Origin: Anaerolineae bacterium
Lineage (GTDB): Bacteria; Chloroflexota; Anaerolineae; DRVO01
Length of the DNA stretch: 46,709 bases
Assembly (NCBI GenBank): GCA_013178015.1
Contig: JABLXR010000029.1
Coordinates: 1-46,709 of the forward strand
Reading direction: 5' to 3'
Part shown: positions 2,314 through 36,552 of the stretch, one piece after another
Numbering within the stretch: the stretch's first letter is position 1
How the letters are laid out: every line of letters starts with the position of its first letter
The notes under the pieces: generated by a model
Database searches by the model: none
What the model was told of the DNA's origin: nothing
Seen by the model: only the letters and a program-made list of their open reading frames with translations
Translations under genes and position numbers: made by a program

Positions 2314-4557
2314 ATGGCGCTGATGCGTGAACCACAGCACCACAGCTGGGCCGAGTTGCAGCGGAACATCGCCCTGCAGACGGGCGTGGTGCTGGGGCTG
2401 GTGGGCTGGTACGGATGGTACCGCACTCTGATTGTCCCCCTTTGGGATGCCCGGGTGGTCGGAATCCTACTGGCGGCCACCGCCGCCTGCCTGGTTCCCC
2501 TCTTGCGGCCGAGGCTGGGGGGCGCCTGGGCTCACGCGATACAGGTTGCCGCAGCCGCGACCGCAGCCTACCTCTGTTACGCCGCGTTGGGCTACCAGGT
2601 CGCCCTGCTTTTCCTAGCCTTGCCTCTCCTCCAGGCGGCCCTGACTCTCCCTCTGTGGGTGCCGCCTATCCTCGCCTTGGGCTTCTCCGTCGCTGTGGCC
2701 GCGGGCGGGCCCAGACCGACTGAGACCCTATGGGCCTACACCGTGCTTTACCTTTCGGTGACCGGAATGGGTCTCCTGGTGGCCCAGAGCTTCCGGGGCG
2801 CACTGGCCGACTCGTGGAGACACGTGGGAGTGACGGGCGACTTGGTGCGGGAGGTGCGGGCCCGCCAGGAGGAGATCAACCGGCTCAACAAAGCTCTCAA
2901 GGTGTCCAATGGCCTGCTCAAGCGTAGCCTCTCCGAGCTGGCGCTGGCTACCCGGGAAGCGGAGGAGGCCCGGCACCTGAAGGAGCAGTTCGCCACCACT
3001 GTGAGCCACGAACTGCGCACGCCGCTCAACATAATCCTGGGCTTCGTGGATGTGATGCAGCAGTACCCGGAAGTGTACGGGGAGGTGAACTGGACTCCCC
3101 TCCTGCGGCGGGACCTGGGGGAGATCCAGCGGGGCGCTCGATACCTGTCCTCTCTGGTAGACGACATCCTGGACCTGGCCCGCATCCAGGCGCTCAAGAT
3201 GCCCATCCACCGGGAGCAGACCGACCTGAAGGCCCTGGTGGAGGAGGTCACGGCCCTGGCGGGCCGGCTGCTGCTGACGAAGCCGGAGGTGCGCCTGACT
3301 TCTGACGTTCCCGACGGCTTGCCCAGCTTGTATGTGGATCAGACTCGGGTGCGCCAGGTACTGCTCAATCTCTTGGCCAATGCCTGCCGCTTCACCGCTC
3401 AGGGTGAGATAGCGGTGCGGGTGGAGCTCAACGCGGAAGAGGTGGTGATCGGCGTGGCCGACACCGGCTCCGGCATCGCTCCGGAGCAGTTGGACGCCAT
3501 ATTCGAGGAGTTCCGCCAGGAGGCCCGCGCCATGCCCCAGGGGGACGAGGGGGTGGGCAAGGGGCTGGGGCTGGCCATCGCCAAGCGATTCGTGCAGATG
3601 CACGGGGGAAGGATCTGGGCCGAGAGCACTCTGGGTCAGGGAAGCACCTTCTACTTCACCCTACCCCTGATGGAGAAACGGGTCGTCTCTCTGCCGGCGC
3701 CGGCAGGCCAGGCCGAGCCTACCATCAAGGCTGAGCCGGCGGTGATCCTGGTGGATGAGGGCGAGGGGCAAGCCTTTCTGGCCCGGCACCTGGAGGGCTA
3801 CCAGGTGCTGGCGGCCCCCGACCTGGTGACGGCGCGCAGACTCACCCGGGAGAGACACCCGCGGGCGATCATCCTCAACGTGCCCCCGCCCGCCGAAGGG
3901 GCCACCCAAGGGCCGCTGCCGCCCATCGTCCCGGAGCCGGTGCCGGTGCTGCAGTGCTCGCTACCCACCGGGAGCTGGTCCTCGGAGCGACACCTCTTCG
4001 ACGACTGGCTGGTCAAGCCTGTCACCAGCGAGAAGCTGCTGGGAGCGCTGGCGCGCTTCCCGGAGGCCCGCCGGGTGTTCGTGGTGGACGACGATCGGGG
4101 CTTCGTCCGCCTGGTGCGGCGCATTCTGGAGGCGCTGCCCCAACCCTACGAGGTGGCCTGGGCCCACCAGGGCGAGGAGGCGCTGGCTCTGTTGCAGGAG
4201 AAGGGGCGGGCCGGCTCCGGGCAGGGCGAAGGCTCGCCGGGCAGTGACGGCGGGGTAGACGTGGTATTGCTCGACATCGCGCTGCCGGGCCTGGATGGCC
4301 GAGCCGTTGCTCGGGCGCTGCGGAAGGATGGCGGGGACCGCTGTCCCGTCCTCATCGCGGTGACAGCGGTGCAGCCGGGGCTGGAGGGCCCGGCGACGAG
4401 CCCGCGCGCGTTCGCCGTAACCTCCAGCGTGGGGTTCCGCGAGGAGGACACTCTGGAGCTCATCCGCGCCTGCCTGGGGCGCCTCAAGCCTGCCTTCGCC
4501 CTCGAATCACCTGGTTCAGAGCCTGAAGGAGAACCGGCCGAGACACGGGCTTGGTGA
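2314..4557 (+). CDS. Membrane hybrid sensor histidine kinase with pseudo-receiver and receiver
   Basis: The 747-residue protein has five to six N-terminal membrane segments (about 15-165) with no large external sensor domain. A coiled linker follows (about 185-225). The HisKA box is FATTVSHELRTPLN with phospho-acceptor H232. The HATPase_c domain shows ADTGSGI (D383) and GKGLGLAIAKRFV. A receiver-like segment (about 478-585) lacks the acceptor Asp, with N522 in AIILNV, but keeps the later Lys in LVKPVT. The C-terminal receiver has the acidic VVDDD pocket and D654 in VVLLDIALPG. The ATG at 2314 is chosen because AGGAGG (2304-2309) precedes it; GTG 2293 and ATG 2296 lack such a site. The 3' end overlaps the convergent regulator gene by 74 bases. 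The paralogue at 32923-35097 has the same domain order. Confidence 0.92.
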   Translation: MALMREPQHHSWAELQRNIALQTGVVLGLVGWYGWYRTLIVPLWDARVVGILLAATAACLVPLLRPRLGGAWAHAIQVAAAATAAYLCYAALGYQVALLFLALPLLQAALTLPLWVPPILALGFSVAVAAGGPRPTETLWAYTVLYLSVTGMGLLVAQSFRGALADSWRHVGVTGDLVREVRARQEEINRLNKALKVSNGLLKRSLSELALATREAEEARHLKEQFATTVSHELRTPLNIILGFVDVMQQYPEVYGEVNWTPLLRRDLGEIQRGARYLSSLVDDILDLARIQALKMPIHREQTDLKALVEEVTALAGRLLLTKPEVRLTSDVPDGLPSLYVDQTRVRQVLLNLLANACRFTAQGEIAVRVELNAEEVVIGVADTGSGIAPEQLDAIFEEFRQEARAMPQGDEGVGKGLGLAIAKRFVQMHGGRIWAESTLGQGSTFYFTLPLMEKRVVSLPAPAGQAEPTIKAEPAVILVDEGEGQAFLARHLEGYQVLAAPDLVTARRLTRERHPRAIILNVPPPAEGATQGPLPPIVPEPVPVLQCSLPTGSWSSERHLFDDWLVKPVTSEKLLGALARFPEARRVFVVDDDRGFVRLVRRILEALPQPYEVAWAHQGEEALALLQEKGRAGSGQGEGSPGSDGGVDVVLLDIALPGLDGRAVARALRKDGGDRCPVLIAVTAVQPGLEGPATSPRAFAVTSSVGFREEDTLELIRACLGRLKPAFALESPGSEPEGEPAETRAW

Positions 4558-5653
4558 TGTAGGCGGCGGCCCCCAGCGCCGATCCCAACGCCGGGTCGTC
4601 CACTACTGAACACACGATCACGGGGATGTCTCGGGTACGCTCGTCTACCTTGAGTGCCTGCAGGACGCGCCAGCCGTCCGTCTCTGGCATCATGATGTCC
4701 AGCAGCACGGCCTCGGCCCGGGTCGCCGCGGCCAGGTTGCCGGCCACCCGGGGGCTGGGGGCGAGGATGGGCTGCCACTCGCTGTTGGCCAGGTATCGCT
4801 GATAGAGGGCGAAGGCGGCCGGGTTGTCCTCCACCACCACCACTCGCCGGTCGCCGCAGCGGGGGAGGATGAGGTGGAGGCAACGCTCATCCCCCTCGCC
4901 TACGTACCGGTGGCGGAGATTCTGGGCTTCGGCGACTCGCAGGGCGGAGTGCAGCAGGTCGCGGCGGGCCATGTCTTCCTCAGGCCCGACCGGCAGCGAC
5001 AGGAGGATGTCGTCGCCCTGCGCCTCCAGCACCACCTCAACTTCGGCGCGATCGGTGCTCTGGACAATTGCGCTCAGGAGCTGGGTGATGATCTCGCCCA
5101 GGATGCCGGGGCTGGCGCTGGTCACCATCTCCTGATCCGGCTCCCGGCGGTGCAGGCGGATACCGCAGGCATCGGCCAGAGGGGCGACGGTGGCCGTGGC
5201 CTGAGATATCAGGCGGGAGAGGTCCACCCGTTCTGGAGTGCCGGCGAGGGCGCCCAGTTCGCTGTCGAGGGAGTCCTGGCGCTGGTCGATGTCGCGATCG
5301 GACAGCTTTCGAGCCAGGAGCTCGCACAGTCGCTCCTCGCCCCAGCGCAGGTCGCGGTAGACCTGGCGGGTGCTGAGGGCGAGCTCCTCGGCTATCTCCT
5401 CGATGGAGAGGCTGGAGATGTAGCGGAGGCTGATGCACTCATGAGCGCGGTACTCGGAGGCGGAGGGGGCCACTTTGCCGGTGGGGCGGAGGGCCTCGAT
5501 GGCGTCCAGGAGGAGGCGGCGGAGGGCGTGGCCGCGCTGGGGGCCCCGAGCTGGATGCAGGGCGGCGGCCAGCTCGGTCCGCTCGAGCTCGGCCGGGCTG
5601 TAGAGGGCCAGCAATGCCTCGCGGACGTGCTCTTTGGTGATCGGACCAGGCAT
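4484..5653 (-). CDS. Response regulator: sigma-like HTH, pseudo-HATPase, C-terminal receiver
   Basis: The 389-residue protein has an unusual order. Residues 72-113 form a sigma-70 region-4-like helix-turn-helix (SLSIEEIAEELALSTRQVYRD). Residues 143-263 resemble a kinase ATP-binding domain (VDLSRLISQA, then GEIITQLLSAIVQST at the N-box position) but lack the N-box Asn and the DxGxG box. Residues 269-385 are a complete receiver with VVVVEDN, D319 in AVLLDIMMPETDGW and K368 in ITKPVS. DNA-binding proteins of two-component systems normally carry the receiver first. The partner is probably the convergent kinase whose 3' end it overlaps. The start is the ATG at 5653, which gives the same beginning as the paralogue at 36289. 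It is divergent from sugar cassette 1, which it may control. Confidence 0.85.
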   Translation of the reverse strand: MPGPITKEHVREALLALYSPAELERTELAAALHPARGPQRGHALRRLLLDAIEALRPTGKVAPSASEYRAHECISLRYISSLSIEEIAEELALSTRQVYRDLRWGEERLCELLARKLSDRDIDQRQDSLDSELGALAGTPERVDLSRLISQATATVAPLADACGIRLHRREPDQEMVTSASPGILGEIITQLLSAIVQSTDRAEVEVVLEAQGDDILLSLPVGPEEDMARRDLLHSALRVAEAQNLRHRYVGEGDERCLHLILPRCGDRRVVVVEDNPAAFALYQRYLANSEWQPILAPSPRVAGNLAAATRAEAVLLDIMMPETDGWRVLQALKVDERTRDIPVIVCSVVDDPALGSALGAAAYITKPVSRPVLLQALNQVIRGRRQA

Positions 5654-5802
5654 GGAGTAGCTCCGAAGCGCGCGATCTGCGGTCCGTCGCGTCAGCACAT
5701 GCGCGTCGTGCCCGTCGGGCGCTCAAGACTGCGCTATGGCGGAGCAGGCAACCGTGACAGACTCTGTCGTTGGATTGTCAAGCGTTGCTACTCGGGGGTC
5801 AT

Positions 5803-5808
5803 TATACT
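5803..5808 (+). promoter_or_regulatory. Possible -10 element for sugar cassette 1
   Basis: TATACT lies 83 bases before the binding-protein ATG, inside ATTATACT. The best upstream hexamer is TTGTCA (5775-5780), but its 22-base spacing is too long for a standard sigma-70 promoter. An activator-dependent promoter would fit the adjacent regulator gene. The same ATTATACT string occurs upstream of the second kinase (32803-32810). Confidence 0.3.
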
Positions 5809-5891
5809 TTGACTATGGGATGGCCTGCCAGGCGCGTTCCCTGGCGGCTGGGGCAGCACTTCAGCAGATCAGAGGATTGGGGGAGGTCACG

Positions 5892-7250
5892 ATGAGAAAC
5901 AGTCACGGACTGTCCAGAAGGAGTTTCCTCCGAGCGGCCGGGGTCTTCGGGGGAGCGGCGGCGCTGGCAGCCTGCGCGCCGGCGACACCACAGGTAGTGG
6001 AGAAGGTGGTGAAGGAGACGGTGGTCGTCGCCCCCGAGGCCGCCGAGAAGGCACCGGTGACCCTCACGCACTGGCAGCACCATGCGGCGAGTTACGTTCA
6101 GGCGGTTGAGTCGTTCAAGGCTCGGTTCGAGGACTTGTATCCGCATGTCAGCATCGACTTCCAGTCCATTCCTTGGGCTGAATTCTGGGGCAAACTAGCA
6201 TCGGCGATCGCCGCTGGCAAAGGCTCGGCCCCTGACGTGTTCATGATTCCGATGGGCCTGATCGATGAGTATGTACTGGGTGGCAGCCTAGTACCCGTCG
6301 ACGAGAACATCATAACAACCGCAGAGATAGAGGAGAGCTACTGGGACTGGACCATCGCAAGAGGCAAGAAGGATGGAGTCTACTACGGCCTTCCCCTCAA
6401 CGTCCAGACTCTGCTTATCTATCGCAACAACGTCATACATGAGGAGGCGGGTCTGGACCCCACGGAACCATTCATCGACCACGCCGACTTCTATGAGAAG
6501 GCGATGTTGATGATGAAGAAGACGAATGGGGAGACCGACCAGATCGGCTGCAACACTAACTACTACTGCGCCTGGCAGACGACCCTGTACCAGCAGTTCC
6601 TCCAGCGGGAGAAGGATGGAACCCACTGGATCGATCCGGCGACAAACCGGCTAGTCTGGCACGACTACCCTGAGATCTTCCAGGCCTTTGAGTGGTTCTG
6701 CAAGCTCTCAGCAGACGCTGACGACAGTGCCTTCATGAAAGGGCAGAACAGGTTCGCGTTGGGCAAGGCCGGTATGGAGATCGGGCATCCAGTCTCGCGA
6801 GGCACGCTGCGCATCACCGCACCTGATCTGGAGTACACCATTTCGCCTTTCCCCCCGCGCTCAGCCGGACAAGACCTCTACACCGCAGGCTCGCATTGGA
6901 TGTGGGTGGTCGGAAAGTGGGCACCGGACTACCATACCGCTTGGCAGTGGGTGCACTTCTGCACGAACAAACCGGCACAGGTCACCTGGGTTGACGTGGC
7001 GGGGGACCTTCCAAGCCACAAGGACTTGGCTGATGAGCCGCGGTTCCGTCAGGACGCCAACGCTGTGGTGGTCATGGACTCGATCAAGTACGCTTCCCCA
7101 TGGGAATGGGTCGGCTGGGCAGAGTGGTGCAAGGAGTTCACGGACGCCAGGGACCGCGTCGTCATCGGCGGTGAGGCCACGGAACAGTCGTTCAACACCA
7201 TGGTGGAGAACCTCAACAAAGTCATCGATACACACACACCGAAAGCGTAG
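5892..7250 (+). CDS. Sugar ABC transporter substrate-binding lipoprotein (cassette 1)
   Basis: The 452-residue protein belongs to the family 1 extracellular solute-binding proteins (MalE/UgpB-like). The N-terminus has a twin-arginine signal (SRRSFLRAAG, R9-R10) ending in the lipobox LAAC (C28). It should therefore be exported folded by Tat and anchored by lipid. A short V/E/K stalk follows (VVEKVVKETVVV). The mature part shows the family pattern DVFMIPMGLIDEYVLGGSLVPVDE. The ATG at 5892 follows GGAGGT (5882-5887); an earlier ATG at 5736 would bury the signal peptide. It heads an operon with two permeases and a URO-D-like enzyme. A strong hairpin directly after its stop may raise its level over the permeases. 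The sugar bound is not predictable. Confidence 0.93.
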   Translation: MRNSHGLSRRSFLRAAGVFGGAAALAACAPATPQVVEKVVKETVVVAPEAAEKAPVTLTHWQHHAASYVQAVESFKARFEDLYPHVSIDFQSIPWAEFWGKLASAIAAGKGSAPDVFMIPMGLIDEYVLGGSLVPVDENIITTAEIEESYWDWTIARGKKDGVYYGLPLNVQTLLIYRNNVIHEEAGLDPTEPFIDHADFYEKAMLMMKKTNGETDQIGCNTNYYCAWQTTLYQQFLQREKDGTHWIDPATNRLVWHDYPEIFQAFEWFCKLSADADDSAFMKGQNRFALGKAGMEIGHPVSRGTLRITAPDLEYTISPFPPRSAGQDLYTAGSHWMWVVGKWAPDYHTAWQWVHFCTNKPAQVTWVDVAGDLPSHKDLADEPRFRQDANAVVVMDSIKYASPWEWVGWAEWCKEFTDARDRVVIGGEATEQSFNTMVENLNKVIDTHTPKA

Positions 7251-7257
7251 CGCGACC

Positions 7258-7287
7258 CTTGGGTGCGGGCCGCGGCCCGCACCCAAG
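7258..7287 (+). terminator. Intercistronic GC-rich hairpin after the cassette 1 binding protein
   Basis: CTTGGGTGCGGGCC (7258-7271) and GGCCCGCACCCAAG (7274-7287) are perfect inverted repeats of 14 bases. No T-run follows, so partial termination or 3'-end stabilisation of the binding-protein transcript is more likely than complete termination. Cassette 2 has a hairpin in the same place. Confidence 0.6.
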
Positions 7288-7336
7288 CCCTAGTTGGCCG
7301 CCGACGCCGGGCTCGCGAGCGACGGAAGAAAGGTCT

Positions 7337-8281
7337 ATGGTTAGCCAAGCGGGTATACCCTTTGTCCAGAGAAGTCGCTGGAGTCGCCAGCGATTGCATG
7401 ATCTGGCGTGGGCCTATGTGTTCCTGTCGCCAGCATTCTTCTTCTTGATAGTGCTCCTGCTATTTCCCATAGTCTTCGCCTTCTGGATCAGCCTGCGCGA
7501 TTGGAGCCTGATCCCGCGCCCGTACCCCTTCATCGGATTGCGCAACTATGCGGAGGCCTTCAGCGACCCTCTGACTGTCAAGAGCATCAAGAACACCTTC
7601 ATCTACACCGTTGGCGCCGTGCCCGTCAGTCTGGCCATCTCCCTGCTGCTCGCACTGGTGATGAACCAAGAGGGGTTGCCGCTGCGGACGGCCTTCCGCA
7701 CTGCCTATTTCATCCCCGTCATCACTTCGTGGGTGGCGGTCTCCTTCGTCTGGATCTGGATGTTCGAGCCACGCTGGGGCCTGGTCAACAGCTTCCTACG
7801 CCTGATCGGCATCACCGGCATCCGCTGGCTGGCCTCACCGCAGTGGGCGCTGCCGGCCATTATGATCGTAGCCATCTGGAAGGGGCTGGGCTACTATATG
7901 GTCATCTTCCTTGCTGGCCTGCAGACCATCCCGCGCGAACTGATGGAAGCCGCGCGGATTGACGGCGCCAATCGCTGGCAAGGCTTCCGCTCGGTTACCT
8001 TCCCGCTGCTCAACCCCACCATTGTCTTCTTGACCGTGACCTCGGTGATCGGGTCACTGCAGGTCTTCACTCCTGCAGTCATCATGACCACCGGCGCCGG
8101 GGGAGAGGCTGGGGGGCCGATCAACTCGACTCGAGTGATGGTGTATCACATCTACTCTATGGCCTTCCGAGCGAACCGGCTGGGCTATGGTGCCGCCCTG
8201 GCTTTCATTCTGTTCGCCATCATACTGGTCATCACGATCATCCAGCTACGCGTTACCCAACGCGAGTTTGAGTACTCTTGA
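7337..8281 (+). CDS. Sugar ABC transporter permease, MalF type (cassette 1)
   Basis: The 314-residue inner-membrane protein has six hydrophobic segments. The binding-protein-dependent permease (EAA) loop reads MEAARIDGANRWQGFRSVTFPLLNP, the contact site for the ATPase. It pairs with the next gene product to form the channel. The ATG at 7337 has GAAAGG upstream; the earlier in-frame GTG at 7259 lies inside the intercistronic hairpin and would add a proline/arginine-rich tail. No ATP-binding subunit is encoded in this cassette. Confidence 0.93.
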   Translation: MVSQAGIPFVQRSRWSRQRLHDLAWAYVFLSPAFFFLIVLLLFPIVFAFWISLRDWSLIPRPYPFIGLRNYAEAFSDPLTVKSIKNTFIYTVGAVPVSLAISLLLALVMNQEGLPLRTAFRTAYFIPVITSWVAVSFVWIWMFEPRWGLVNSFLRLIGITGIRWLASPQWALPAIMIVAIWKGLGYYMVIFLAGLQTIPRELMEAARIDGANRWQGFRSVTFPLLNPTIVFLTVTSVIGSLQVFTPAVIMTTGAGGEAGGPINSTRVMVYHIYSMAFRANRLGYGAALAFILFAIILVITIIQLRVTQREFEYS

Positions 8282-8339
8282 CGGGGGACGTCAGCCCCGG
8301 AATTGCGGCTGGACCACGCTATCCCGAGGAACGCATGAC

Positions 8340-9230
8340 ATGGCTCTGAACCAGGCCGTGCCCAAGCCTAGATCCAGGCGACGGGGACTACTGCGAGGTC
8401 TCAATGTGGGTGAGAGAGTGGCCCTGCTGGTGGGCCTGCTGCTGCTGGCCTTCGGCGGTGTGTGGATGCTCTTGCCGCTGATCTGGATGCTCTCCGCTTC
8501 GCTCATGCCGCTGTCGGAAGTTATCAAGGTACCACCAGTATGGTTCGCGCCGGCTAAGTACTCCCTCGCCAACTATGTCGAGGTGTGGTCTCGTGTCGGC
8601 TTCTCCCGCTATTTCTTCAACAGTGCTTTCGTGGCGACCACGATCACCGTCCTTCAGTTGCTGACCAGTGCCATGGCCGGGTTCGCCTTCGCCCGATACG
8701 ACTTCCCCGGGCGCACGGTGATATTCATCATTATCCTCTCCACCATGATGATCCCCTTTCAGGTGATCATGATTCCTCTCTTCATCATGATGGCACGACT
8801 GCGGCTAGTGAACACTATGTGGGGCCTGATCGTACCTTCTATGGTCACCGCCTTTGGGGTATTTCTGATGCGTCAGTTCATGCTTGGTGTCCCTAGGCCC
8901 CTGCTTGAGGCGGCCCGCATAGATGGCGCATCGGAGCCGTACATCTTCAGCCGCATCATGTTGCCTCTATGCAAGCCGGCTCTGGCGGCCCTGGGGATAT
9001 TCGCGTTCCTTGGGAGCTGGGACAACTTCCTCTGGCCCTTGATCATTATCAACAGCCGTGAGTTGTGGACTCTGCCGATAGCGATGTCCCGGTTCACAGA
9101 GCAGTACATAGCTCAGACCCACCTTCAGATGGCCGGTGCTGCCATCATGTTCGTGCCGGTTCTCGTGGTTTTCCTCCTGATGCAGCGCAACTTCATAGAA
9201 GGGATCGCCCTAACGGGCCTCAAGGGCTAG
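8340..9230 (+). CDS. Sugar ABC transporter permease, MalG type (cassette 1)
   Basis: The 296-residue inner-membrane protein has a basic N-terminal tail (PKPRSRRRG), then six membrane segments and the EAA loop LEAARIDGASEPYIFSRIMLP. The C-terminus with MQRNFIEGIALTGLKG is typical of MalG-like subunits. The ATG at 8340 follows GAGGA (8326-8330) at nine bases. An upstream in-frame GTG at 8187 would overlap the MalF gene. It forms the permease heterodimer with the preceding gene product, and the downstream enzyme gene begins seven bases after its stop. Confidence 0.92.
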   Translation: MALNQAVPKPRSRRRGLLRGLNVGERVALLVGLLLLAFGGVWMLLPLIWMLSASLMPLSEVIKVPPVWFAPAKYSLANYVEVWSRVGFSRYFFNSAFVATTITVLQLLTSAMAGFAFARYDFPGRTVIFIIILSTMMIPFQVIMIPLFIMMARLRLVNTMWGLIVPSMVTAFGVFLMRQFMLGVPRPLLEAARIDGASEPYIFSRIMLPLCKPALAALGIFAFLGSWDNFLWPLIIINSRELWTLPIAMSRFTEQYIAQTHLQMAGAAIMFVPVLVVFLLMQRNFIEGIALTGLKG

Positions 9231-9236
9231 GGGCAC

Positions 9237-10364
9237 ATGGCAACAGCACAGAGGATGTCATCACGGGAACGGCTTCTGGCCGCCTATCAGTCTCAGCCTG
9301 TCGACAGGGTGCCTATTCGCGTCTGGGGGGCAGAGCCCTGGACCAAGGTGTGGCACCCCTCGTTCCGGCCCATTCTGGATGCGGCCCTAGAACACACGGA
9401 TCTCTGCGCTGGCTGGGGACCGTACCTGAACCTCTTCTGGTCGGATGTGCCGGTGCCCATGCAAGTGAAAGATCGGCCCAGCCGGCACGAGGGCTTCGTT
9501 GACAGGGTAACCACGTACGAAACGCCACGTGGCTCCATCACACAGGTGGAGGCGGTGAGCACGCAACACAAGCCGGGACGGGTGCTCAAGTTCTTTGTCC
9601 AGAGCGAAGAGGATGCCCTGGCCTGGCTGTCAGTTCCTTACGTGCCGTCGCGGCCTGACCTCTCGCCCTTCTTCGAGAAGCGCGATCAGCTGGGGGAGCG
9701 CGGCCTGATGATGGCCTACATCGGCGAGCCGATGTACCACATCTACACCCTAATGGGCAGTGAGCTCATGGCCTTCTGGAGCATAGAGAAGCGCGACCTG
9801 CTCCGCGAGATGATCAATGCGGCCGAGCGGCGCTTGACCGACCTGGTGTTCTACATGCTCGAGCAGGGGGTGGGGCCAGTGTTTGGCTATGTTGGCCCAG
9901 AGCTGTGCATCCCGCCGCTGATGACTCCCAGAGACTTCTATGAGTTCGTGGTGCAAGTGGATAAGAAGTTCACGCTGCCCATCCGTCAGGCGGGTAAGCT
10001 GCTCTGGGTGCACTGCCACGGCGGAATGGGGCCAGTGATCGAGGGGTTTCTGGAGATGGGCGTCAATTGCTTGAACCCCATCGAGCCCCCGCCCAACGGT
10101 GACATCACCCTGGCGGAGGCGCGCCAGAGGGTGGGCGACCGCATGTGCCTCGAGGGGAACATCGAGGCTGACGATATGTTCCGGAGCAGCCCAGAGCGCA
10201 TACGGGAGCTGGTCCGCACCGCCATCGAGGAGGCGCGAGGGGGCGGCTTCATTCTCTGTCCCACCAGTGGCTTCATGGAGTGGCCCACGGCGTCCCCCAC
10301 CCAGGTGAACAATTACTTGGAGTTCATCAAGGCGGGGCTCGAGTTTGGCGCCAATCCCGACTAG
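9237..10364 (+). CDS. Uroporphyrinogen decarboxylase (URO-D)-like protein
   Basis: The 375-residue protein belongs to the URO-D superfamily, which includes true heme decarboxylases and zinc-dependent methyltransferases (MtaA/CmuA type). The C-terminal half shows WVHCHGGMGPVIEGFLEMG, DRMCLEGNIEADD and ILCPTSGFMEWP. H259, H261 and C341 are in places where the methyltransferase branch binds zinc, although the usual HxCG is HCHG here. It is the last gene of sugar cassette 1, seven bases after the MalG gene and without other heme genes. A heme role is therefore unlikely, and an enzyme acting on the imported compound is the better guess. The ATG at 9237 is used; ATG 9252 is possible. Confidence 0.75.
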   Translation: MATAQRMSSRERLLAAYQSQPVDRVPIRVWGAEPWTKVWHPSFRPILDAALEHTDLCAGWGPYLNLFWSDVPVPMQVKDRPSRHEGFVDRVTTYETPRGSITQVEAVSTQHKPGRVLKFFVQSEEDALAWLSVPYVPSRPDLSPFFEKRDQLGERGLMMAYIGEPMYHIYTLMGSELMAFWSIEKRDLLREMINAAERRLTDLVFYMLEQGVGPVFGYVGPELCIPPLMTPRDFYEFVVQVDKKFTLPIRQAGKLLWVHCHGGMGPVIEGFLEMGVNCLNPIEPPPNGDITLAEARQRVGDRMCLEGNIEADDMFRSSPERIRELVRTAIEEARGGGFILCPTSGFMEWPTASPTQVNNYLEFIKAGLEFGANPD

Positions 10365-28961: not shown

Positions 28962-29855
28962 CTACTTCATCCCCTGAATCATGATCCCCTGCACGAAGTA
29001 GCGCTGGCCTAAGAAGAAGAGCAGCAGTAGAGGCAGGATGGACACTAGCGAAATGGCCATCATCCAGTGCACCCGCTGCACCCCCAGACTGGACTGGAAC
29101 AGCCGCAGGCCCACGGCGATAGTGAACTTGTTGGGAGTGTTGAGGTAGATCAGGGGACCCATGAATTCGGTCCAGTAGTTAGTGATACAAAACATGGCCA
29201 CCACTCCGAGGACGGGTTTGGCTAGCGGCAAGACTATGCGGCTGTAGATGGTGAAGTAGCTGCCGCCGTCGATCCGAGTGGCGTCATCCAACTCCAGGGG
29301 AACGGTCATGTAGAACTGGCGTAGAAGAAAGATGTAGAAGGGGTTCCCCAGCCACCGAGGTACGACCAGGGGCCGATACGTGTTCAGCCATCCTAGGCGG
29401 CTAAAGATGGCGAAGAGCGGTATCAGGGTCACCTGATCCGGGAGCATCATGGTGCTCAGGACGAGCAGGAACAGGAGATTGCGGCCCCGGAAGCGTAACC
29501 GGGCAAAGCCGAAGGCCACCAGGGAGTTGGTGAGGATCTGCCCTAGCGTGGAGAGGACGGTGACGGTAATGGTGTTGGCGAAGAACCGGGGAGTAGGGAA
29601 CTGCCGCCAAGCATCCACGTAGTTCTGGAAGACCACCGGGTTCGGAATCCACTGGGGTGGCCAGGTGAAGACCTGAGACTGAACCTTGAGTGACGTGGAC
29701 AGCATCCACAAGAAGGGGATGAGGAAGATGACTCCGCCGGCTGCTACCACCAGGTACCGGGTCACTAGCCCCAGGGCCCGGACAGCCTGGCGAGAGGCCG
29801 TCACCTTGCGGCCCGGGCGAGTCAATGCCTTCGCGCCAGTGTGCACGTAGGCCAT
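28962..29855 (-). CDS. Sugar ABC transporter permease, MalG type (cassette 2)
   Basis: The 297-residue membrane protein has six hydrophobic segments. The ATPase-contact loop is LDDATRIDGGSYFTIYSRIVLPLAKP, and the MalG-like end is GQRYFVQGIMIQGMK. The ATG at 29855 has an AGGTAGGG stretch upstream and lies four bases from the MalF stop. It pairs with that product to form the membrane channel. No ATPase gene is present in the cassette. Confidence 0.93.
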   Translation of the reverse strand: MAYVHTGAKALTRPGRKVTASRQAVRALGLVTRYLVVAAGGVIFLIPFLWMLSTSLKVQSQVFTWPPQWIPNPVVFQNYVDAWRQFPTPRFFANTITVTVLSTLGQILTNSLVAFGFARLRFRGRNLLFLLVLSTMMLPDQVTLIPLFAIFSRLGWLNTYRPLVVPRWLGNPFYIFLLRQFYMTVPLELDDATRIDGGSYFTIYSRIVLPLAKPVLGVVAMFCITNYWTEFMGPLIYLNTPNKFTIAVGLRLFQSSLGVQRVHWMMAISLVSILPLLLLFFLGQRYFVQGIMIQGMK

Positions 29856-29859
29856 ATCC

Positions 29860-30777
29860 CTACCTGCCTGCCTTCACTTCGGCCTCGTAGTAGACCCACA
29901 TGGCCGAGGACTTGAACACCAACAGCGTGAGCGCCAGGATGATGAACAGGAGTATCCAGGCCAGGCCAGAGGCATATCCGAAGTGGTACTTCATGAAGGC
30001 CTGGTTGTACAGATTCAGCACGTACATGAGGGTGGCGTTGTTGGGGCCGCCCGCGGTCATGATGAAGGCGGCCGTAAACACCTGGAAGGAGCCAATGATG
30101 CCAGTGACCAGGGTGAAGAAGAGGGTCGGGGTGATCATGGGCAAGGTGATACTGCGGAAGCGCGCGATCGCGTTCGCTCCGTCGAGAGAAACGGCCTCAT
30201 ATAGCTCCTGAGGTACACCTCGCAGCCCGGCCAGGAAGATCATCATGCTGCCGCCTGCTCCCCAGAGAGACATGATGATGAGCGCCGGTTTGGCCCACTG
30301 CTCGCTAAAGAGCCACTTCGGCTGCGGCAGTCCCAGCCAAGCCAGCAAGGCGTTCATGATGCCGAACTGGGGGTTAAGGATCCACTGCCAGAGCAGGGCC
30401 ACAGCCACTCCGGAGACCACCGAGGGAAGGTAATAAACGGTGCGGAAGAGCCGCATGCCAAAGTATTCCGCATTTAGCAGGAGGGCGATGGCCAGGCCCA
30501 AGGCGATGCCCAGGGGCACGCTGATGAAGGAGTAGTAAGCGGTGTTGGCCAGGCTCTTGGTGAACAGGGGATCGTGGAAGAGTATGTTCCGATAGTTGTC
30601 CAGGCCGACGAAGACGGTGGGGGTCATGAAATCGGCCCGGCACAGGCTAAGGTAGAGCGAGATGGCCATTGGCCCCGCCGTGAAGGCGATGAAGCCAACC
30701 ACCCAGGGGGAGATGAAGAGGTAGCCGGCGATCTCCTCTTTCGCCCGCTGCGAGAGGCGCAGCGATTCTGCCACCAT
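29860..30777 (-). CDS. Sugar ABC transporter permease, MalF type (cassette 2)
   Basis: The 305-residue membrane protein has six hydrophobic segments and the loop LYEAVSLDGANAIARFRSITLPMITP, in which the usual EAA is EAV. ATG 30777 follows AGGGG; a longer frame from 30918 would overlap the intercistronic hairpin and is not like this family. The sequence ITAGGPNNATLMYVLNLYNQAF-type segment is shared with the cassette 3 MalF (GGGPNNATLFYVLYIYRQGW), which suggests that cassettes 2 and 3 are related. Confidence 0.93.
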   Translation of the reverse strand: MVAESLRLSQRAKEEIAGYLFISPWVVGFIAFTAGPMAISLYLSLCRADFMTPTVFVGLDNYRNILFHDPLFTKSLANTAYYSFISVPLGIALGLAIALLLNAEYFGMRLFRTVYYLPSVVSGVAVALLWQWILNPQFGIMNALLAWLGLPQPKWLFSEQWAKPALIIMSLWGAGGSMMIFLAGLRGVPQELYEAVSLDGANAIARFRSITLPMITPTLFFTLVTGIIGSFQVFTAAFIMTAGGPNNATLMYVLNLYNQAFMKYHFGYASGLAWILLFIILALTLLVFKSSAMWVYYEAEVKAGR

Positions 30778-30860
30778 GGTGTCACCCCTTATCTGCCGGA
30801 TGTACAGCCAAGGAATGATCCGTCGTCTGTCTGAAGGGCTCCGACCACCTGTGTAGTGCC

Positions 30861-30885
30861 GGGCAGGGCCGCTGAGGCCCTGCCC
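30861..30885 (-). terminator. Intercistronic hairpin after the cassette 2 binding protein
   Basis: GGGCAGGGCC (30861-30870) and GGCCCTGCCC (30876-30885) form a perfect 10-bp stem with a five-base loop, 51 bases after the binding-protein stop and before the MalF start. It matches the hairpin in cassette 1 in place and strength, so it probably sets the binding-protein to permease ratio. Confidence 0.65.
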
Positions 30886-30936
30886 CGTGACTTCGCGGGC
30901 GCCGAGTGGGCGTCTCAATGCATCTAGCGCGCCCCA

Positions 30937-32286
30937 TCAGGTCGTCTGGGCATACACCTGGCGGAGCTGCGCGGATGCCTGGGTAACCAGCTCCTCAACG
31001 GTGATGGCATTGAGGAGCATGCACTGGTCGTAGAGAGGATTCCAGATCTCGCTGAACTCCTGAGCGTTGCGAACCATTGATCGCACATCCGGGCGGCACG
31101 TCTCCATCACCTCGGAGACGCACTCTAGGTTCTTCTCCGGCATAAGCTCTTCCCAGGCCGTAGTGAGAGACCTCCTCGGTGGGGTCATGCCGATCTCGAG
31201 GTGCTTGAGGCAGATCTCGGGCGAAACCAGGTAGGCCAGGAACCGGAAAGCCTCGTCCGGGTACTTGGTCTTGCCATAGACGTGGTAGCCGTCCATGGAA
31301 GTGCGGGTGCCGACGCCGCACGGGCCCACGGGGGTGTTGATCATGTCCCAGTCGAAGCCCGACTCGTCTCGCACTAGGGTGACAATGCCTGACCCCTCGG
31401 TTAGCATGCCTGCCATCTGGGCCGTGAATGCCGCGCGCCCGCCCAACCCGGCCATCATCTCGGTCAGGCCATAGGAGCCATCCTTCCAGATCAGATCGTG
31501 AATGACCTGGAGGCCCTCGATGGTTTCTGGCTTGTCCAGAAGCACGACGGTGTCATCATCGGGGTCTACCACATCGCCGCAGTGGCTCCAGATGGAGCAG
31601 ATGTCGAGACGGGTCAGTCCGAAGCCGCCGGTGATGCCGAAGCGGGGCTTGTCCCTATCTGTTAGGGCATGGGCCAAGACCCTCAGGTCTTCCCACGTCC
31701 ACTCCGCGGTGGGGTGTGCTACCCCCAGCTCATCGAACATGTCCTTGTTGTAGTAGATGATGACAACGTTGAGGTATTTGGGGAGGGCAATCAACTGCCC
31801 TCTGTAGTCACAACCTTTGAGGGGGTTGGGGAAGAAGTCTTCGAGGTCCTCTCTCAGGTTGTGCCGGTCCACCGCCGGATTGAGGTCCAGCACCTGGCCT
31901 TTCTCAGCCCAGATCTTGAAATAGGAGCCGAACCCGGCGAAGACATCGGGAGCCTCGCCGCTAGCCATCTGGGCCGTGAGCTTCTCGAACCAGTCGCCTA
32001 TGCCGGGCTCATAGGTGACAGTGATGTCCGGGTTCTGCTCGTGGAACATGGCGCAGATCTCGTCGTTGTACTTCTGTTCGTCGGCCGGGTCTCCCCAGCC
32101 TCCCTCATCCACCCAGCGCAGCGCCACTACTTCCTGGGGCGCTGCTGCCGGAGCCGTAGTGGCGACGGCTTCGGTAGCCACCGGCGCCGGTGCTCCGGCG
32201 CAGGAAGCCAAGCCACTTGCCAGAATGCTGGTGCCCGTCATAGCCGCGAAGGTCTTGAGGAAACCACGCCGAGACACGGTAGGCAT
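30937..32286 (-). CDS. Sugar ABC transporter substrate-binding lipoprotein (cassette 2)
   Basis: The 449-residue family 1 solute-binding protein has a Tat signal (SRRGFLKTF, R6-R7) and lipobox LASC (C29), then an Ala/Thr/Val-rich spacer. The mature protein shows the family pattern YEPGIGDWFEKLTAQMASGEAPDVF, and YYNKDMFDELGV followed by WTWEDLRVLAHAL. ATG 32286 has GGAGGG upstream; the earlier in-frame ATG at 32337 would hide the signal. It leads a probable operon with two permeases and two aminotransferases, and is divergent from the second histidine kinase gene, which may sense the same nutrient. Confidence 0.93.
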   Translation of the reverse strand: MPTVSRRGFLKTFAAMTGTSILASGLASCAGAPAPVATEAVATTAPAAAPQEVVALRWVDEGGWGDPADEQKYNDEICAMFHEQNPDITVTYEPGIGDWFEKLTAQMASGEAPDVFAGFGSYFKIWAEKGQVLDLNPAVDRHNLREDLEDFFPNPLKGCDYRGQLIALPKYLNVVIIYYNKDMFDELGVAHPTAEWTWEDLRVLAHALTDRDKPRFGITGGFGLTRLDICSIWSHCGDVVDPDDDTVVLLDKPETIEGLQVIHDLIWKDGSYGLTEMMAGLGGRAAFTAQMAGMLTEGSGIVTLVRDESGFDWDMINTPVGPCGVGTRTSMDGYHVYGKTKYPDEAFRFLAYLVSPEICLKHLEIGMTPPRRSLTTAWEELMPEKNLECVSEVMETCRPDVRSMVRNAQEFSEIWNPLYDQCMLLNAITVEELVTQASAQLRQVYAQTT

Positions 32287-32804
32287 CTCATCCCTCCTTA
32301 CCCCGAACCCAAACCGGGGAACCGCGGGGCATTTCATCGGCCTGATGGTGTCTGAGTACCGGGAGCTGAGCTACTGGGTCGCCGGGACACCTCCTTTCCG
32401 GGACTGGCCGTGCCCGCCGGTGAGCGAAGTGGGCGATGTCCTGAGTCTGTCCGTGTCCGTACGAGGATGGCACTCCTATCGGCTTCGACGCACCAGCGAT
32501 GGGCGAGACGTGGTTCCGGCGTGGCTGACGCGGGAGCCGCTCACCTGAGGGGCTTGCACCTGCCCCCAGAGCTAGACCGTCTTCCGGCGCCAGGCTCCGC
32601 CCGGAAGCACGCCTGGCCTGCTCGACCCGTCTACCCCTGGGGCCAGAGGGTCGTGAGCCAGAAACTGATGTCGCGGATGGCCTCACTGGCCGACGAGTCT
32701 CCCCAACGCGTCCCGTGCCAATTCCTATGGCGCCTAGCCCGGCTCGTCATGGGGCCGTGGGCACGGGGGGCGCTCCATGGCTCTCGGAGTTGCTCATACT
32801 GCAT

Positions 32805-32922: not shown

Positions 32923-35097
32923 ATGTTCGTGGAGACGGGGTCTGGCGGAGCCGCAGCCGGTCTGGATCGGGCCACGCGGGAGGAGGTCCGTCAGTCCACA
33001 TTCAAGGCCTTCCTGACGGCCAGCACCCTCTTCGCGGTCTGGGGCTGGTGGCACTACTACAACGGCCCGGCTTCGGTTCCGGAGCTGCGCTGGATGACCC
33101 TGGGGACCGGCCTGGCCCTGCTGTCGGTATGTGTGCTGGCGGTGGAGGGAAGCCGATGGAGCCGGCCGGCCTACCTTATCACGGTCGGTGCCGCCATCAC
33201 GCTCTGCCAGTGGATGCAGATCTTCCCGCATGCCGGTTATCTCTGGGCGCTGGCCGCACTCGTCGCGGGGGCACTGGTGCACCCGGTGGCCGGCGTTGCG
33301 GCAGGGGCCCTGGGAGCGGCGGTCACGATGTCGCTCGGCGCCGGGGGGCTGCCGGAGGCCAGCGTGTCCGTCTTCGGCGGGGTGCTGGTGTGGCTGGCCC
33401 TGCGGCCGCTCTACGATCTGCTCCGGCGCTACTCGGCCCAGAGCCTGGAGGCGGTCACCCTGGCGGAACGGCTGCGCGACGAGCGGGCCAAGCTCAACCG
33501 AACCATTCGAGACCTGGACGCCTCCTACCGACTGATGGAGAGGACCAGCCGGGAGCTGGCTCTGGCGTGCAGGGAAGCGGACGCCTTACGAGACCTGAGG
33601 CACCAGTTCGCCACCAACCTCAGCCACGAACTGCGCACGCCCCTAAACATCATCCTGGGTTTCAGCCGCCTGGTCTACTCCCATCCGGAGATGTACGGCT
33701 ACGACGGTTGGGGCCGGGAGCTGATGCGTGACTTGGCGGAGATCCAGCGAAGCGCCGGCTACCTGTCCCAACTGGTGGATGACATTGTGGACCTGGCTCG
33801 GGCCGATGCCCTGTCCATGCCGGTGAGGCGGGAGCCGTGCGACATCGCCGCTCTGGCCCGGGAGGCGGTGGAGTTGGTGCGCAATCTGGCCCGGGGCCGG
33901 GGCATCGCGGTGGAGCTGCGCCTCGGTGAGGCTGGTGAGCCTATCGCTGCCGATCCGGTGCGGATCAGGCAGGTGCTCTTCAATCTGCTGACCAATGCCG
34001 TCCGCCACACCGAATCCGGTACAGTGACCGTGATGGTGCGTGAGGAAGGGGACGAGGTGGTGGTTACGGTGCGGGACACCGGCCGTGGCATCCCGGCGGC
34101 TGAGTTGGAGACGATCTTCAGCGAGTTCTACCAGCTGGGGCAGCCAGTCCACGGAGAAGAGCCGGGCAAAGGGCTGGGGCTGGCCATTGCTAAACGCTTC
34201 GTGCAACTCCATGGCGGTCGAATCTGGGTGGAGAGCGAAGTGGGTGTGGGCAGCTCCTTCCACTTCTCGTTGCCCCGGATCTCCAAGTCTTTCTCATCGC
34301 CGCTCCCGGCGGCGGCACCCGCGTACGGCGCTAAGCTCCAGCCACAGGTGCTTCTCCTGGGCGACGACGGGCCAGCGGGTCACTACCTCTCCCGGCGGCT
34401 GGAAGGGTTCCAGTTCGTGCCCGTGCCTGACCTGTCAGCAGGGGCGGCGGATGGTGACCTCGCCCGAGCGTCGGCCGTGCTCATCAACCGACCTTTGTCT
34501 GGCGGAGACGACGACGGGACTGAACGGCTACTGAACTTGCTGCCGCCCCACCTCCCGGTGATCGAATGCTGCCTTCCCACGCCGGCCTGGTTGCGGGATA
34601 GGGGGCTGTTTGCCGAAGTGCTGACTAAGCCCGTGGGTTCCGACGCCCTTCTGGCAGTGGTGCATCGATTCGTGGGAGACAAGGAGAAGGCCCGGATCTT
34701 GGTGGCCGATGACGACCGCGGCTTCACCCGGCTCATCTCCCGCATGCTGAACGCCGATGGTCCCTCGGGGCTGGAGCTGCTGACGGCCTACTCAGGAGAC
34801 GAGGCACTGGGCAAAGCTCGCAGCCAGCGCCCTGACCTGATCCTCATGGATCTGCTGATGCCAGGAATGCCCGGGTTCGAGGCGGCCGAGGCCATACGCG
34901 CCGACCCTGAGCTCAGTCAGGTGCCGGTAGTGGCGGTGACGGCGGCCACGCCGGGTGAGGACCGAGTGGAGGCTAGCGGCGCCAGTCTGACGGTCCTCAA
35001 GCGCGGTGGCTTCTCCCCGGGCGAGCTGACCGGTCTGCTACAGCATACTCTGGAGGAGCTCACTCGCCGGGCTCCCGACCATCCAGGCAGTCGGTAA
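32923..35097 (+). CDS. Membrane hybrid sensor histidine kinase (second copy)
   Basis: The 724-residue paralogue of the kinase at 2314 has the same order. Hydrophobic segments (about 25-165) are followed by a coiled linker and HisKA FATNLSHELRTPLN (H235). HATPase_c shows RDTGRGI and GKGLGLAIAKRFV. A pseudo-receiver carries N522 in AVLINR where Asp is expected, with a preserved LTKPVG. The C-terminal receiver has VADDD and D643 in LILMDLLMPG. No external sensor domain is seen, so it may sense a membrane partner or a signal within the bilayer. ATG 32923 follows GGAGGGA; the long in-frame extension upstream to 32410 is rejected. Its 3' end overlaps the convergent regulator gene by 38 bases. Confidence 0.91.
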   Translation: MFVETGSGGAAAGLDRATREEVRQSTFKAFLTASTLFAVWGWWHYYNGPASVPELRWMTLGTGLALLSVCVLAVEGSRWSRPAYLITVGAAITLCQWMQIFPHAGYLWALAALVAGALVHPVAGVAAGALGAAVTMSLGAGGLPEASVSVFGGVLVWLALRPLYDLLRRYSAQSLEAVTLAERLRDERAKLNRTIRDLDASYRLMERTSRELALACREADALRDLRHQFATNLSHELRTPLNIILGFSRLVYSHPEMYGYDGWGRELMRDLAEIQRSAGYLSQLVDDIVDLARADALSMPVRREPCDIAALAREAVELVRNLARGRGIAVELRLGEAGEPIAADPVRIRQVLFNLLTNAVRHTESGTVTVMVREEGDEVVVTVRDTGRGIPAAELETIFSEFYQLGQPVHGEEPGKGLGLAIAKRFVQLHGGRIWVESEVGVGSSFHFSLPRISKSFSSPLPAAAPAYGAKLQPQVLLLGDDGPAGHYLSRRLEGFQFVPVPDLSAGAADGDLARASAVLINRPLSGGDDDGTERLLNLLPPHLPVIECCLPTPAWLRDRGLFAEVLTKPVGSDALLAVVHRFVGDKEKARILVADDDRGFTRLISRMLNADGPSGLELLTAYSGDEALGKARSQRPDLILMDLLMPGMPGFEAAEAIRADPELSQVPVVAVTAATPGEDRVEASGASLTVLKRGGFSPGELTGLLQHTLEELTRRAPDHPGSR

Positions 35098-36289
35098 GGG
35101 CGGCCACGAGAGCCCCTCGGGAGACGGGCTTCACCAGATGGGCTCGAGCTCCCAGAGCCTGGCTCAGTGGCGGGTCCTGGACGATGGAGCACACCACCAC
35201 CGGAATGGCGGCTGTGACTGGATCGCTCGATAGCGCCCTCAACACGCTCCACCCATCCAGGTGCGGCAGCATGATGTCGAGGAGTATCACGTCGGGGCGG
35301 ACGCGGGCAGCCATGTCGAGGGCCAACCGGGGGTCAGGCACCGCATGGACCTGCCACCGAGCTGGCACCAGATAACGGCGGTACAGCTCCACAGCGCCGG
35401 GGTTATCCTCCACTACCAAAACGGTTCGTGGAGTACCGGAGCGAAGAGCAAGCGACACCCGGATCTCGCCGGTATGGGGGTCCCTCTCCAGGGCCACTGC
35501 CGCACCCTGGGCCCGGGCGATGAGCGACACGTCACTGAGCTGGTCGGCCGCGACGGGGGCGGTGGACGGTACGAAGGAGACCACCACACTGGGGAAGCCG
35601 TCACCCGTCGCCACCACCAGGCGCACCGGCTCGGCGCCGGATGCCTGAACGGCCAGGCTCAGGACCTGGGCCAGTATCTGCCTCAGGACGGCCTCGTCGG
35701 CCAGGACGGTCACCGGCTCTTCGGGCTGTGCCGCCCAGACTATCGGGGTCCCGGTTCTGTTGGCCAGAGGCCGTACCAGCTCCACGGCGGAGGCTGCTGC
35801 CCGGTTGAGGTCAACGACCACCGGCTGGCTGCGAAAGGCTTCCAGTTCGTCCTGGAACACGTCCGCAGGGCGATGACCCTCCCCCTCCGTCTTGGCGGAC
35901 GCCAGCCGGGTGCTGAGGAGCGATGCCAGCCTAGATTCGGCCATCCACAGGTCGCGGTGTACCTGACGTTCGCTCAGCGACAGCTCGCTGCCCACCTGCC
36001 GGGCAGTCATGTCCTCTATGTACCGCAGGGAGAGCACATCGTAGGCCCGGGACTCGAGGGAACCGAAGGGGTAACGGCGCAGCGGACGCAGAACCTCCAC
36101 CGCGTTCAGGAGAAGCGAACGCAGACGCATTCCCCGCTGTTCCGGCTCTGCGACTTGCGCCACTTCGCTGAAGCGACTGGCCAGAGAGGACATCCCCAGG
36201 GCGGCGTTGTCATAGAGGGACGCCAGGGCCTCGCGCACTTCGTCCCGCGACACTGGACCCGAAGGGCCGGTTCTGCTGGGCTTGATCAT
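35060..36289 (-). CDS. Response regulator: sigma-like HTH, pseudo-HATPase, C-terminal receiver (second copy)
   Basis: The 409-residue paralogue of the regulator at 4484-5653. It has the sigma region-4-like HTH at about 85-125 (SLRYIEDMTARQVGSELSLSERQVHRD). A kinase-ATPase-like middle (158-283) has lost the nucleotide motifs (VLRQILAQVLSLAVQASG at the N-box). The complete receiver has VLVVEDN, D338 in VILLDIMLPHLDGW and K387 in LVKPVS. ATG 36289 has GGAGGGG upstream at nine to ten bases. It runs in the same direction as the sulfatase and importer of cassette 3 and could be the last gene of that transcript. It faces kinase 2, its likely partner. Confidence 0.85.
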   Translation of the reverse strand: MIKPSRTGPSGPVSRDEVREALASLYDNAALGMSSLASRFSEVAQVAEPEQRGMRLRSLLLNAVEVLRPLRRYPFGSLESRAYDVLSLRYIEDMTARQVGSELSLSERQVHRDLWMAESRLASLLSTRLASAKTEGEGHRPADVFQDELEAFRSQPVVVDLNRAAASAVELVRPLANRTGTPIVWAAQPEEPVTVLADEAVLRQILAQVLSLAVQASGAEPVRLVVATGDGFPSVVVSFVPSTAPVAADQLSDVSLIARAQGAAVALERDPHTGEIRVSLALRSGTPRTVLVVEDNPGAVELYRRYLVPARWQVHAVPDPRLALDMAARVRPDVILLDIMLPHLDGWSVLRALSSDPVTAAIPVVVCSIVQDPPLSQALGARAHLVKPVSRGALVAALTDCLDGREPGE

Positions 36290-36552
36290 GGGCGCGGTCC
36301 CCTCCGACAGCTGCTCGAGCCTAAGGGCCGAACTGGTGCATGGGGGCGCCTGGTTCGACCTCGGAGCCAACCGATGCCGTTCGGCTGGAGACGATCCCAG
36401 TATCGTCCTCGAGTTCCATGGAAGCATGTCACTGAGCTGCTCGGCGGGCAAGCCCTACCAGCGGGCGCCATCCGCCGCGTGGCGCCGATGCGCCTACGCG
36501 GCGGAGATCCCCCCAGGTCGGGGCGGTCCGGACGAATGGCGTCCGCCCCCTC

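Follow-up and report, generated by a model that had tools for sequence, protein, structure and literature searches.

Two membrane sensor histidine kinases from a member of the Anaerolineae (Chloroflexota), encoded in a contig stretch of 46,709 nucleotides (JABLXR010000029.1, assembly GCA_013178015.1; the whole stretch is called the window below), carry between their ATPase domain and their terminal receiver a segment that is, judged by its sequence profile and its predicted fold, a degenerate receiver or pseudo-receiver. The Lys-Pro step of this segment is invariant in all 101 aligned relatives, and the segment is therefore likely to have a structural or regulatory role. With slightly better than even confidence, the segment is read here as a built-in regulatory pseudo-receiver of the kind found in ShkA, but one that is no sensor of c-di-GMP, in kinases that mostly adjoin sugar-type ABC transporters. 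Pseudo-receivers in this position are already known; what is new is the mirror-image pattern in which the two receivers retain their catalytic residues, together with the partner regulator. No description of this kinase family or of such receivers was found in the titles and abstract openings of the openly licensed literature, which is a weak negative.

Features of the window, with positions counted from its first nucleotide
Feature	Position	Strand	Remarks
Kinase 1, membrane sensor histidine kinase, 747 aa	2314..4557	+	HisKA - HATPase - pseudo-receiver - terminal receiver
Pseudo-receiver of kinase 1	3733..4071	+	Boundaries from alignment; assigned by profile and predicted fold
Asn codon AAC at the acceptor position, kinase 1 pseudo-receiver	3877..3879	+	Last residue of beta3 in the two-domain model
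Lys-Pro, kinase 1 pseudo-receiver	4015..4020	+	Invariant in 101/101 relatives
Terminal receiver of kinase 1	4072..4512	+	Asp acceptor intact, Ser at the canonical Lys position
Asp acceptor, kinase 1 terminal receiver	4273..4275	+	Invariant in 101/101
Ser replacing the canonical receiver Lys, kinase 1 terminal receiver	4423..4425	+	
Partner response regulator 1	4484..5698	-	HTH - degenerate HATPase - intact receiver; tail-to-tail with kinase 1, overlapping its 3′ end
Degenerate HATPase domain, response regulator 1	4853..5233	-	Approximate
ABC transporter genes: solute-binding protein and two permeases	5736..9230	+	Divergent from response regulator 1
ABC transporter genes: two permeases and solute-binding protein	28962..32337	-	Divergent from kinase 2
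Kinase 2, 724 aa	32923..35097	+	Architecture as kinase 1
Pseudo-receiver of kinase 2	34342..34692	+	Boundaries from alignment; assigned by profile
Asn codon AAC at the acceptor position, kinase 2 pseudo-receiver	34486..34488	+	
Lys-Pro, kinase 2 pseudo-receiver	34627..34632	+	
Terminal receiver of kinase 2	34693..35070	+	Five catalytic residues all present, Lys-Arg instead of Lys-Pro
Partner response regulator 2	35060..36451	-	Tail-to-tail with kinase 2

Both kinase genes start with an ATG (2314 and 32923) that is preceded by a purine-rich stretch of the ribosome-binding type. Counted from these starts, the Asn at the acceptor site is residue 522 in both proteins; the shared number is a product of protein length, and the equivalence of the two Asn positions rests on the alignment. 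In each kinase, Pfam recognizes HisKA, HATPase_c and a single Response_reg domain. The last of these corresponds to the terminal receiver and is matched only in part (positions 1-76 of 111 in kinase 1 and 1-90 in kinase 2), and the pseudo-receiver segments sit between the HATPase_c and Response_reg matches. An earlier note on this DNA had described a receiver-like segment with Asn522 and a Lys-Pro step at this place in both kinases, and this description is borne out: the motifs AIILNV and LVKPVT start at 3865 and 4009 in kinase 1, and AVLINR and LTKPVG at 34474 and 34621 in kinase 2. At the catalytic positions DD1, DD2, D, T and K, the pseudo-receivers read V, D, N, S, K (kinase 1) and G, D, N, C, K (kinase 2). 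A Gly/Ser-rich insertion of 17 residues precedes beta3 in the terminal receiver of kinase 1 (window 4204-4254) and is unique among the aligned rows.

The Pfam Response_reg model does not match the pseudo-receiver segment of either kinase at E values up to 1, and at E up to 0.01 it recognizes 7/64 segments of the family. A profile of these 64 segments, drawn from the window genome and the two genomes closest to it, nevertheless matches receivers in profile-profile comparisons, with a probability of 98.9% (E 3e-17) for 104 receivers of other genomes, 99.4% (E 6e-22) for the receivers of the partner regulators, and 97.0% (E 1e-10) for the terminal receivers of the same kinases. The controls, namely the kinase ATPase domain and the middle domain of the regulators, gave 0.14% and 0.18%, respectively. 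Thus, with 98.9% against 0.14%, the homology to receivers lies well above chance. A profile search of solved structures with the segment also found receivers (best E 2.5e-10), with ShkA in second place (5.5e-9); the stronger of the two ShkA stretches that were matched is its terminal receiver.

The earlier note had proposed modeling the segment against receiver folds, and the predicted structure is indeed receiver-like. Modeled alone (pLDDT 81.7, pTM 0.76), the segment has five strands and four helices, with helix alpha3 missing. In a structural search, the first match to this model was the KdpE receiver (Z 14.4, 2.2 A over 109 residues), and the best 50 matches, with Z up to 14.4, were all receiver-bearing proteins as judged by their titles. 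The best 50 Foldseek matches were likewise receivers or receiver-bearing proteins by title, except for 9ckx, which has an unrelated title, and 6ob8, whose title names only a sensor histidine kinase. A two-domain model (pLDDT 77.1, pTM 0.63), also without helix alpha3, puts the Asn at the end of beta3 and the Lys directly after beta5, which is where the acceptor and the Lys are placed in receivers. Each model was built on eleven rows, two of them window sequences and nine from other genomes, mostly intact receivers; as these pull the prediction towards a receiver, the models are not independent of the receiver homology. In the available text of PMC12632262, pseudo-receivers are defined by receiver homology with a (beta-alpha)5 fold and by the absence of at least one of DD1, DD2, D, T and K. 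The segment agrees with the first part of this definition, though alpha3 is missing in the model, and with the second, as the set is complete in 0/101 relatives. Both window kinases can moreover be classed as having aspartate-less receivers, as can 80/101 relatives in all, which are without the acceptor Asp.

The 101 kinases behind these counts were gathered in two ways. The window genome has 71 HATPase_c matches, among which 36 kinases have this architecture and a complete C-terminus; a congener adds 6 and a different genus of the family 22, which brings the same-family kinases to 64. A further 37 were reached through a class-wide profile search for the partner regulator, in which 40 loci outside the window's family were fetched and 3 were dropped because the kinase was not on the fetched stretch. 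These 37 come from 16 other families (identified by group codes), and the 101 kinases span 17. Membership was decided by similarity (240 bits, or a profile of the core and C-terminus) with the region under study included, so that relatives devoid of the segment could be missed. The rows dropped were L006 (cut by a contig end and counted once with L032), L035, L039 and L040 (below 240 bits) and the fragment L075; the class-level loci L069-L074 were excluded from the family counts, although L069 resembles a member. The contig ends C79 (L006) and C26 (L032) of the window genome share one kinase sequence and probably join there. A tree of the quick kind was built from 98 kinase cores, with 28 of its 95 inner branches weak; it omits 3/101 rows without a matched His box, two of which are cut by contig ends. 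When named genomes were scanned with the kinase alignment, the matches listed were generic kinases and none belonged to this family. In NCBIfam, the best 25 of the 99, 140, 66 and 71 matches to the two kinases and the two regulators included none that reached its cut-off.

The earlier note took the retention of the same Asn in both kinases as a sign of a structural or signal-binding role, and held that orthologues with Asp at this position would speak against it. In the alignment, the acceptor is Asn in 42 of the 101 kinases, Asp in 21, Val in 8, Ala in 5 and another residue in 25, so that 38 have neither Asn nor Asp; outside the window's family, Asn is found in 22/37 and Asp in 8/37. Consequently, one part of the claim is supported and the other is not: a role for the segment is likely, as its Lys-Pro is kept throughout, whereas retention of the Asn itself finds no support. 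Within the window genome, Asn occupies the position in 13/36 paralogues, and its presence in two kinases is therefore no strong sign. The label Asn, Asp or other changes at least 23 times on the tree of 98 kinases, where Asp acceptors are common to several small clades, and the position ranks 72nd of 110 columns in conservation among the 64 members of the window's family. With these figures, Asn was rejected as a conserved feature; it is the commonest acceptor state and, as far as the alignment can tell, one of several tolerated replacements. The idea that the pseudo-receivers bearing Asp are working receivers was also rejected, since none of the 101 has a complete catalytic set.

The two receivers of these kinases differ in opposite directions from a complete one. 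In the pseudo-receiver (n=101), DD1 is kept in 34, DD2 in 26, Asp in 21 and Thr/Ser in 38, while Lys and Pro are kept in 101 each. In the terminal receiver, by contrast, DD1 is kept in 100, DD2 in 99, Asp in 101 and Thr/Ser in 100, while Lys is kept in 17 and Pro in 16. The terminal receiver is thus complete in 17/101 and complete but for the Lys in 81/101, and neither receiver is complete in 84/101 kinases. Arg stands at the terminal Lys position in 56/101, and any Lys within two columns of it in 22/101. Among 104 receivers from other genomes, a set that is biased because it was chosen by similarity to intact receivers, 103 have the Asp, 102 the Lys and 101 the Pro. For pseudo-receivers at large, the available text of PMC12632262 gives about 65% for each of D, T and K.

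An outgroup of 12 distinct tandem-receiver kinases was taken from 16 genomes of the same class without a strong regulator match, a criterion applied to genomes and not to single loci (18 rows less 5 duplicates and L069). In the first receiver of these kinases, Asp and Lys-Pro are each present in 11, and in the second, Lys is present in 12 and Pro in 7. The outgroup and the family differ in the Asp of the first receiver (Fisher p 2e-6) and in the Lys of the second (1e-8), both values being uncorrected for shared descent. With Asp in 11/12 first receivers and Lys in 12/12 second receivers, the ancestral kinase probably had two working receivers. In 5/12 outgroup kinases, the second receiver is already without Pro beside an intact or nearly intact first receiver, and the second receiver may have lost its Pro before its Lys. 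A deltaproteobacterial tandem-receiver kinase (L108:3386-4144) has a first receiver with Gly in place of Asp and with Lys-Pro retained, and the trend may thus be a more general one.

If the segment is a built-in regulatory pseudo-receiver, a signal would arrive at the membrane, perhaps through the neighboring solute-binding protein. The pseudo-receiver would no longer accept a phosphoryl group and would serve as a regulatory piece whose Lys-Pro (beta5-alpha5) end docks on the kinase core or on the terminal receiver and so governs access to the phospho-His. Phosphoryl transfer would most likely be direct, from the His to the partner regulator, because the genome has no clear Hpt domain: a search of the window genome gave one match only (E 6.6e-4, below cut-off; control positive in 10/14 genomes), in a search that could miss divergent proteins and a genome that is 95% complete. 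The terminal receiver, with its Asp kept and its Lys mostly gone, would be a sink or latch and not a relay. The ATP site of the kinases is intact, with N-box, G1 and G2 present in 61/61 and F (57) or Y (4) at the F-box position; these counts cover 61 of the 64 same-family rows, the other 3 being without the motif used for cutting the domain. Folding could be another reason for keeping the Lys-Pro, although in these proteins most terminal receivers are without it.

Instead of acting through docking, the vestigial active-site end might bind a cytoplasmic ligand other than c-di-GMP and so switch the kinase, which seems rather unlikely. Besides Lys and Pro, this end keeps an Arg in alpha1 (92/101) and a Pro between beta4 and alpha4 (91/101), and the c-di-GMP residue Y338 of ShkA corresponds to Lys-3 of the same Lys-Pro (by the structure-search alignment and the numbering of the DDR motif in the available text of PMC7010744, the offset being checked on that motif). 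Nevertheless, Tyr is present at Lys-3 in only 26/101, with Trp in kinase 1 and Val in kinase 2. The Pro of ShkA and its Arg at Lys+3 presumably have a role in binding, and this Arg is found in 0/101. In addition, no GGDEF match was obtained in the window genome (95% complete) at E up to 0.001, with a control positive in 8/14 genomes, and no particular ligand is indicated.

A more doubtful proposal is that the two tandem receivers hold one active site between them, the first contributing the Lys-Pro corner and the second the metal site, Asp and Thr/Ser. The Lys-Pro of the pseudo-receiver would then complete the Asp site of the terminal receiver at an interface, within the chain or across the dimer, and the phosphorylated state would be read there. 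The mirror-image retention (Lys 101 vs 17, Asp 21 vs 101) and the outgroup, where the first receiver has its Asp in 11 and the second its Lys in 12 of 12, are in line with such a division of labor, which is nonetheless improbable. The 17/101 kinases with a complete terminal receiver still keep the Lys-Pro of the pseudo-receiver, and within the family, the first-receiver Asp shows no significant association with the second-receiver Lys (6/17 vs 15/84, Fisher p 0.19). Moreover, the Arg seen in 56/101 may do part of the job of the Lys, and the second receiver has lost its Pro in 5/12 outgroup kinases whose first receiver is intact or nearly so. Finally, plain decay, in which a functionless first receiver persists as a spacer, is very improbable: among the six domains compared, the pseudo-receiver ranks second from the top in mean distance (1.50; kinase core, 0.75) and its acceptor, metal and Thr/Ser positions vary widely, but Lys and Pro are kept in 101/101, the Arg in 92 and the other Pro in 91 across 17 families.

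On the fetched stretches, 94/101 kinases have a partner regulator within 1500 bases and 7 have none, although the 37 non-family kinases were found through the regulator and adjacency is tested from the kinase side only by the other 64. In 91 of the 94 pairs, the genes are convergent (tail-to-tail), and in 3 they lie on the same strand; the 3′ ends overlap in 76/91 convergent pairs, with a median of 55 bases over all 91. The overlaps in the window (4484-4557 and 35060-35097) may be selected or may be a by-product of high G+C. In the window's family, the regulator has an HTH domain that resembles sigma-70 region 4 and falls below the Pfam cut-offs, with Arg, Gln and Arg invariant in 57/57. Its middle domain, which has no Pfam match in either window regulator, matches the kinase ATPase domain by profile (98.8%), with the N-box Asn residues both absent in 57/57. 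The five catalytic positions and the Pro of its receiver are complete in 57/57, DD1 being Glu in 42 and Asp in 15. The regulator is patchily distributed, as the best match reaches E 1e-28 or lower (a chosen cut) in 44/199 genomes of the class; the weaker matches in most other genomes of the class may come from ordinary ATPase domains. This regulator, whose DNA-binding domain and receiver are separated by a degenerate ATPase domain, would be a second unusual output design. Distances between kinases and between regulators correlate (r 0.42-0.69, p 0.0005) across 91 pairs and across 33 pairs within the window genome, and joint duplication alone would give such correlations. Given the kinase core, the partial r with the partner receiver is 0.38 for the terminal receiver and 0.30 for the pseudo-receiver (0.52 and 0.35 in the window genome); as the correlation is stronger for the terminal receiver, these figures do not mark out the pseudo-receiver as the site that contacts the partner.

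In the window genome, 31/36 kinases lie within 6 kb of a gene for a sugar-type solute-binding protein (PF01547), where 18% per kinase is expected and the binomial p under random placement is 8e-19; the proteins beside these kinases are 33 of the 60 PF01547 proteins of the genome. Neighboring solute-binding proteins are not always functional partners, according to the available text of PMC11113362. Between regulator 2 and an ABC transporter lies a gene for a sulfatase with a C-terminus of the N-sulphoglucosamine sulphohydrolase type (36556-38025, minus strand), which perhaps hints at a sulfated glycan as the substrate. Directly after the ABC permeases near kinase 1, a protein of the uroporphyrinogen decarboxylase superfamily is encoded (9237-10364, plus strand), which is not obviously related to haem.

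A 2025 review (PMC12632262) calls the switching of bacterial pseudo-receivers between on and off states a mystery. The family offers a natural experiment on this question: a single genome encodes 36 paralogues, and 16 further families of the class have relatives. As the other catalytic positions drift while Lys-Pro is fixed, and the adjoining receiver does the opposite, a specific and cheap mutational test is possible.

Among known systems, ShkA of Caulobacter (PDB 6qrj) is the best solved match to the kinase core with both receivers (E 4e-72). The available text of PMC7010744 describes it as DHp - CA - pseudo-receiver - receiver, the order that is also found here, and its pseudo-receiver as devoid of helix alpha3, like the models of this study; Lys-Pro is kept in it as well. 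ShkA, by contrast, binds c-di-GMP and feeds a phosphorelay (PMC7010744, available text), whereas in the present genome neither a GGDEF match nor a clear Hpt was found, and a complete regulator is encoded next to the kinase. The contact residue Y338 of ShkA (same source) is not fixed in the family, and the linkers of kinase 1 and kinase 2 are without the DDR motif that ShkA has between its receivers. The GGDEF search of the 95% complete genome gave no sign that the cell makes c-di-GMP, and binding of this molecule in the manner of ShkA is unsupported, as the residues at Lys-3 and Lys+3 also differ.

Hybrid kinases such as GacS/BarA and RcsC (PMC7010744) and CikA (PMC12632262) likewise have pseudo-receivers that are poorly recognized by sequence searches, and RcsC chains are among the PDB matches to the pseudo-receiver; in contrast to the present family, mirror-image retention with a terminal receiver is not mentioned for them in the available text of these two sources. 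The receiver and pseudo-receiver pair of PleD (PDB 2wb4) was the first Foldseek match of the two-domain model, with an overall TM-score of only 0.27; thus, the arrangement of the domains does not match. Unlike the present kinases, PleD is fused to a diguanylate cyclase, and its receiver precedes its pseudo-receiver, which is the reverse order. In Bacteroides, hybrid two-component systems (HTCS) are typically found one per locus. They resemble the present family in being widely expanded, carbohydrate-sensing and tied to utilization genes (PMC11253607 and PMC3404733, available text). In HTCS, however, kinase and regulator form one chain, while here they are encoded by two separate genes beside ABC transporters, convergent in 91/94 pairs and on one strand in 3/94.
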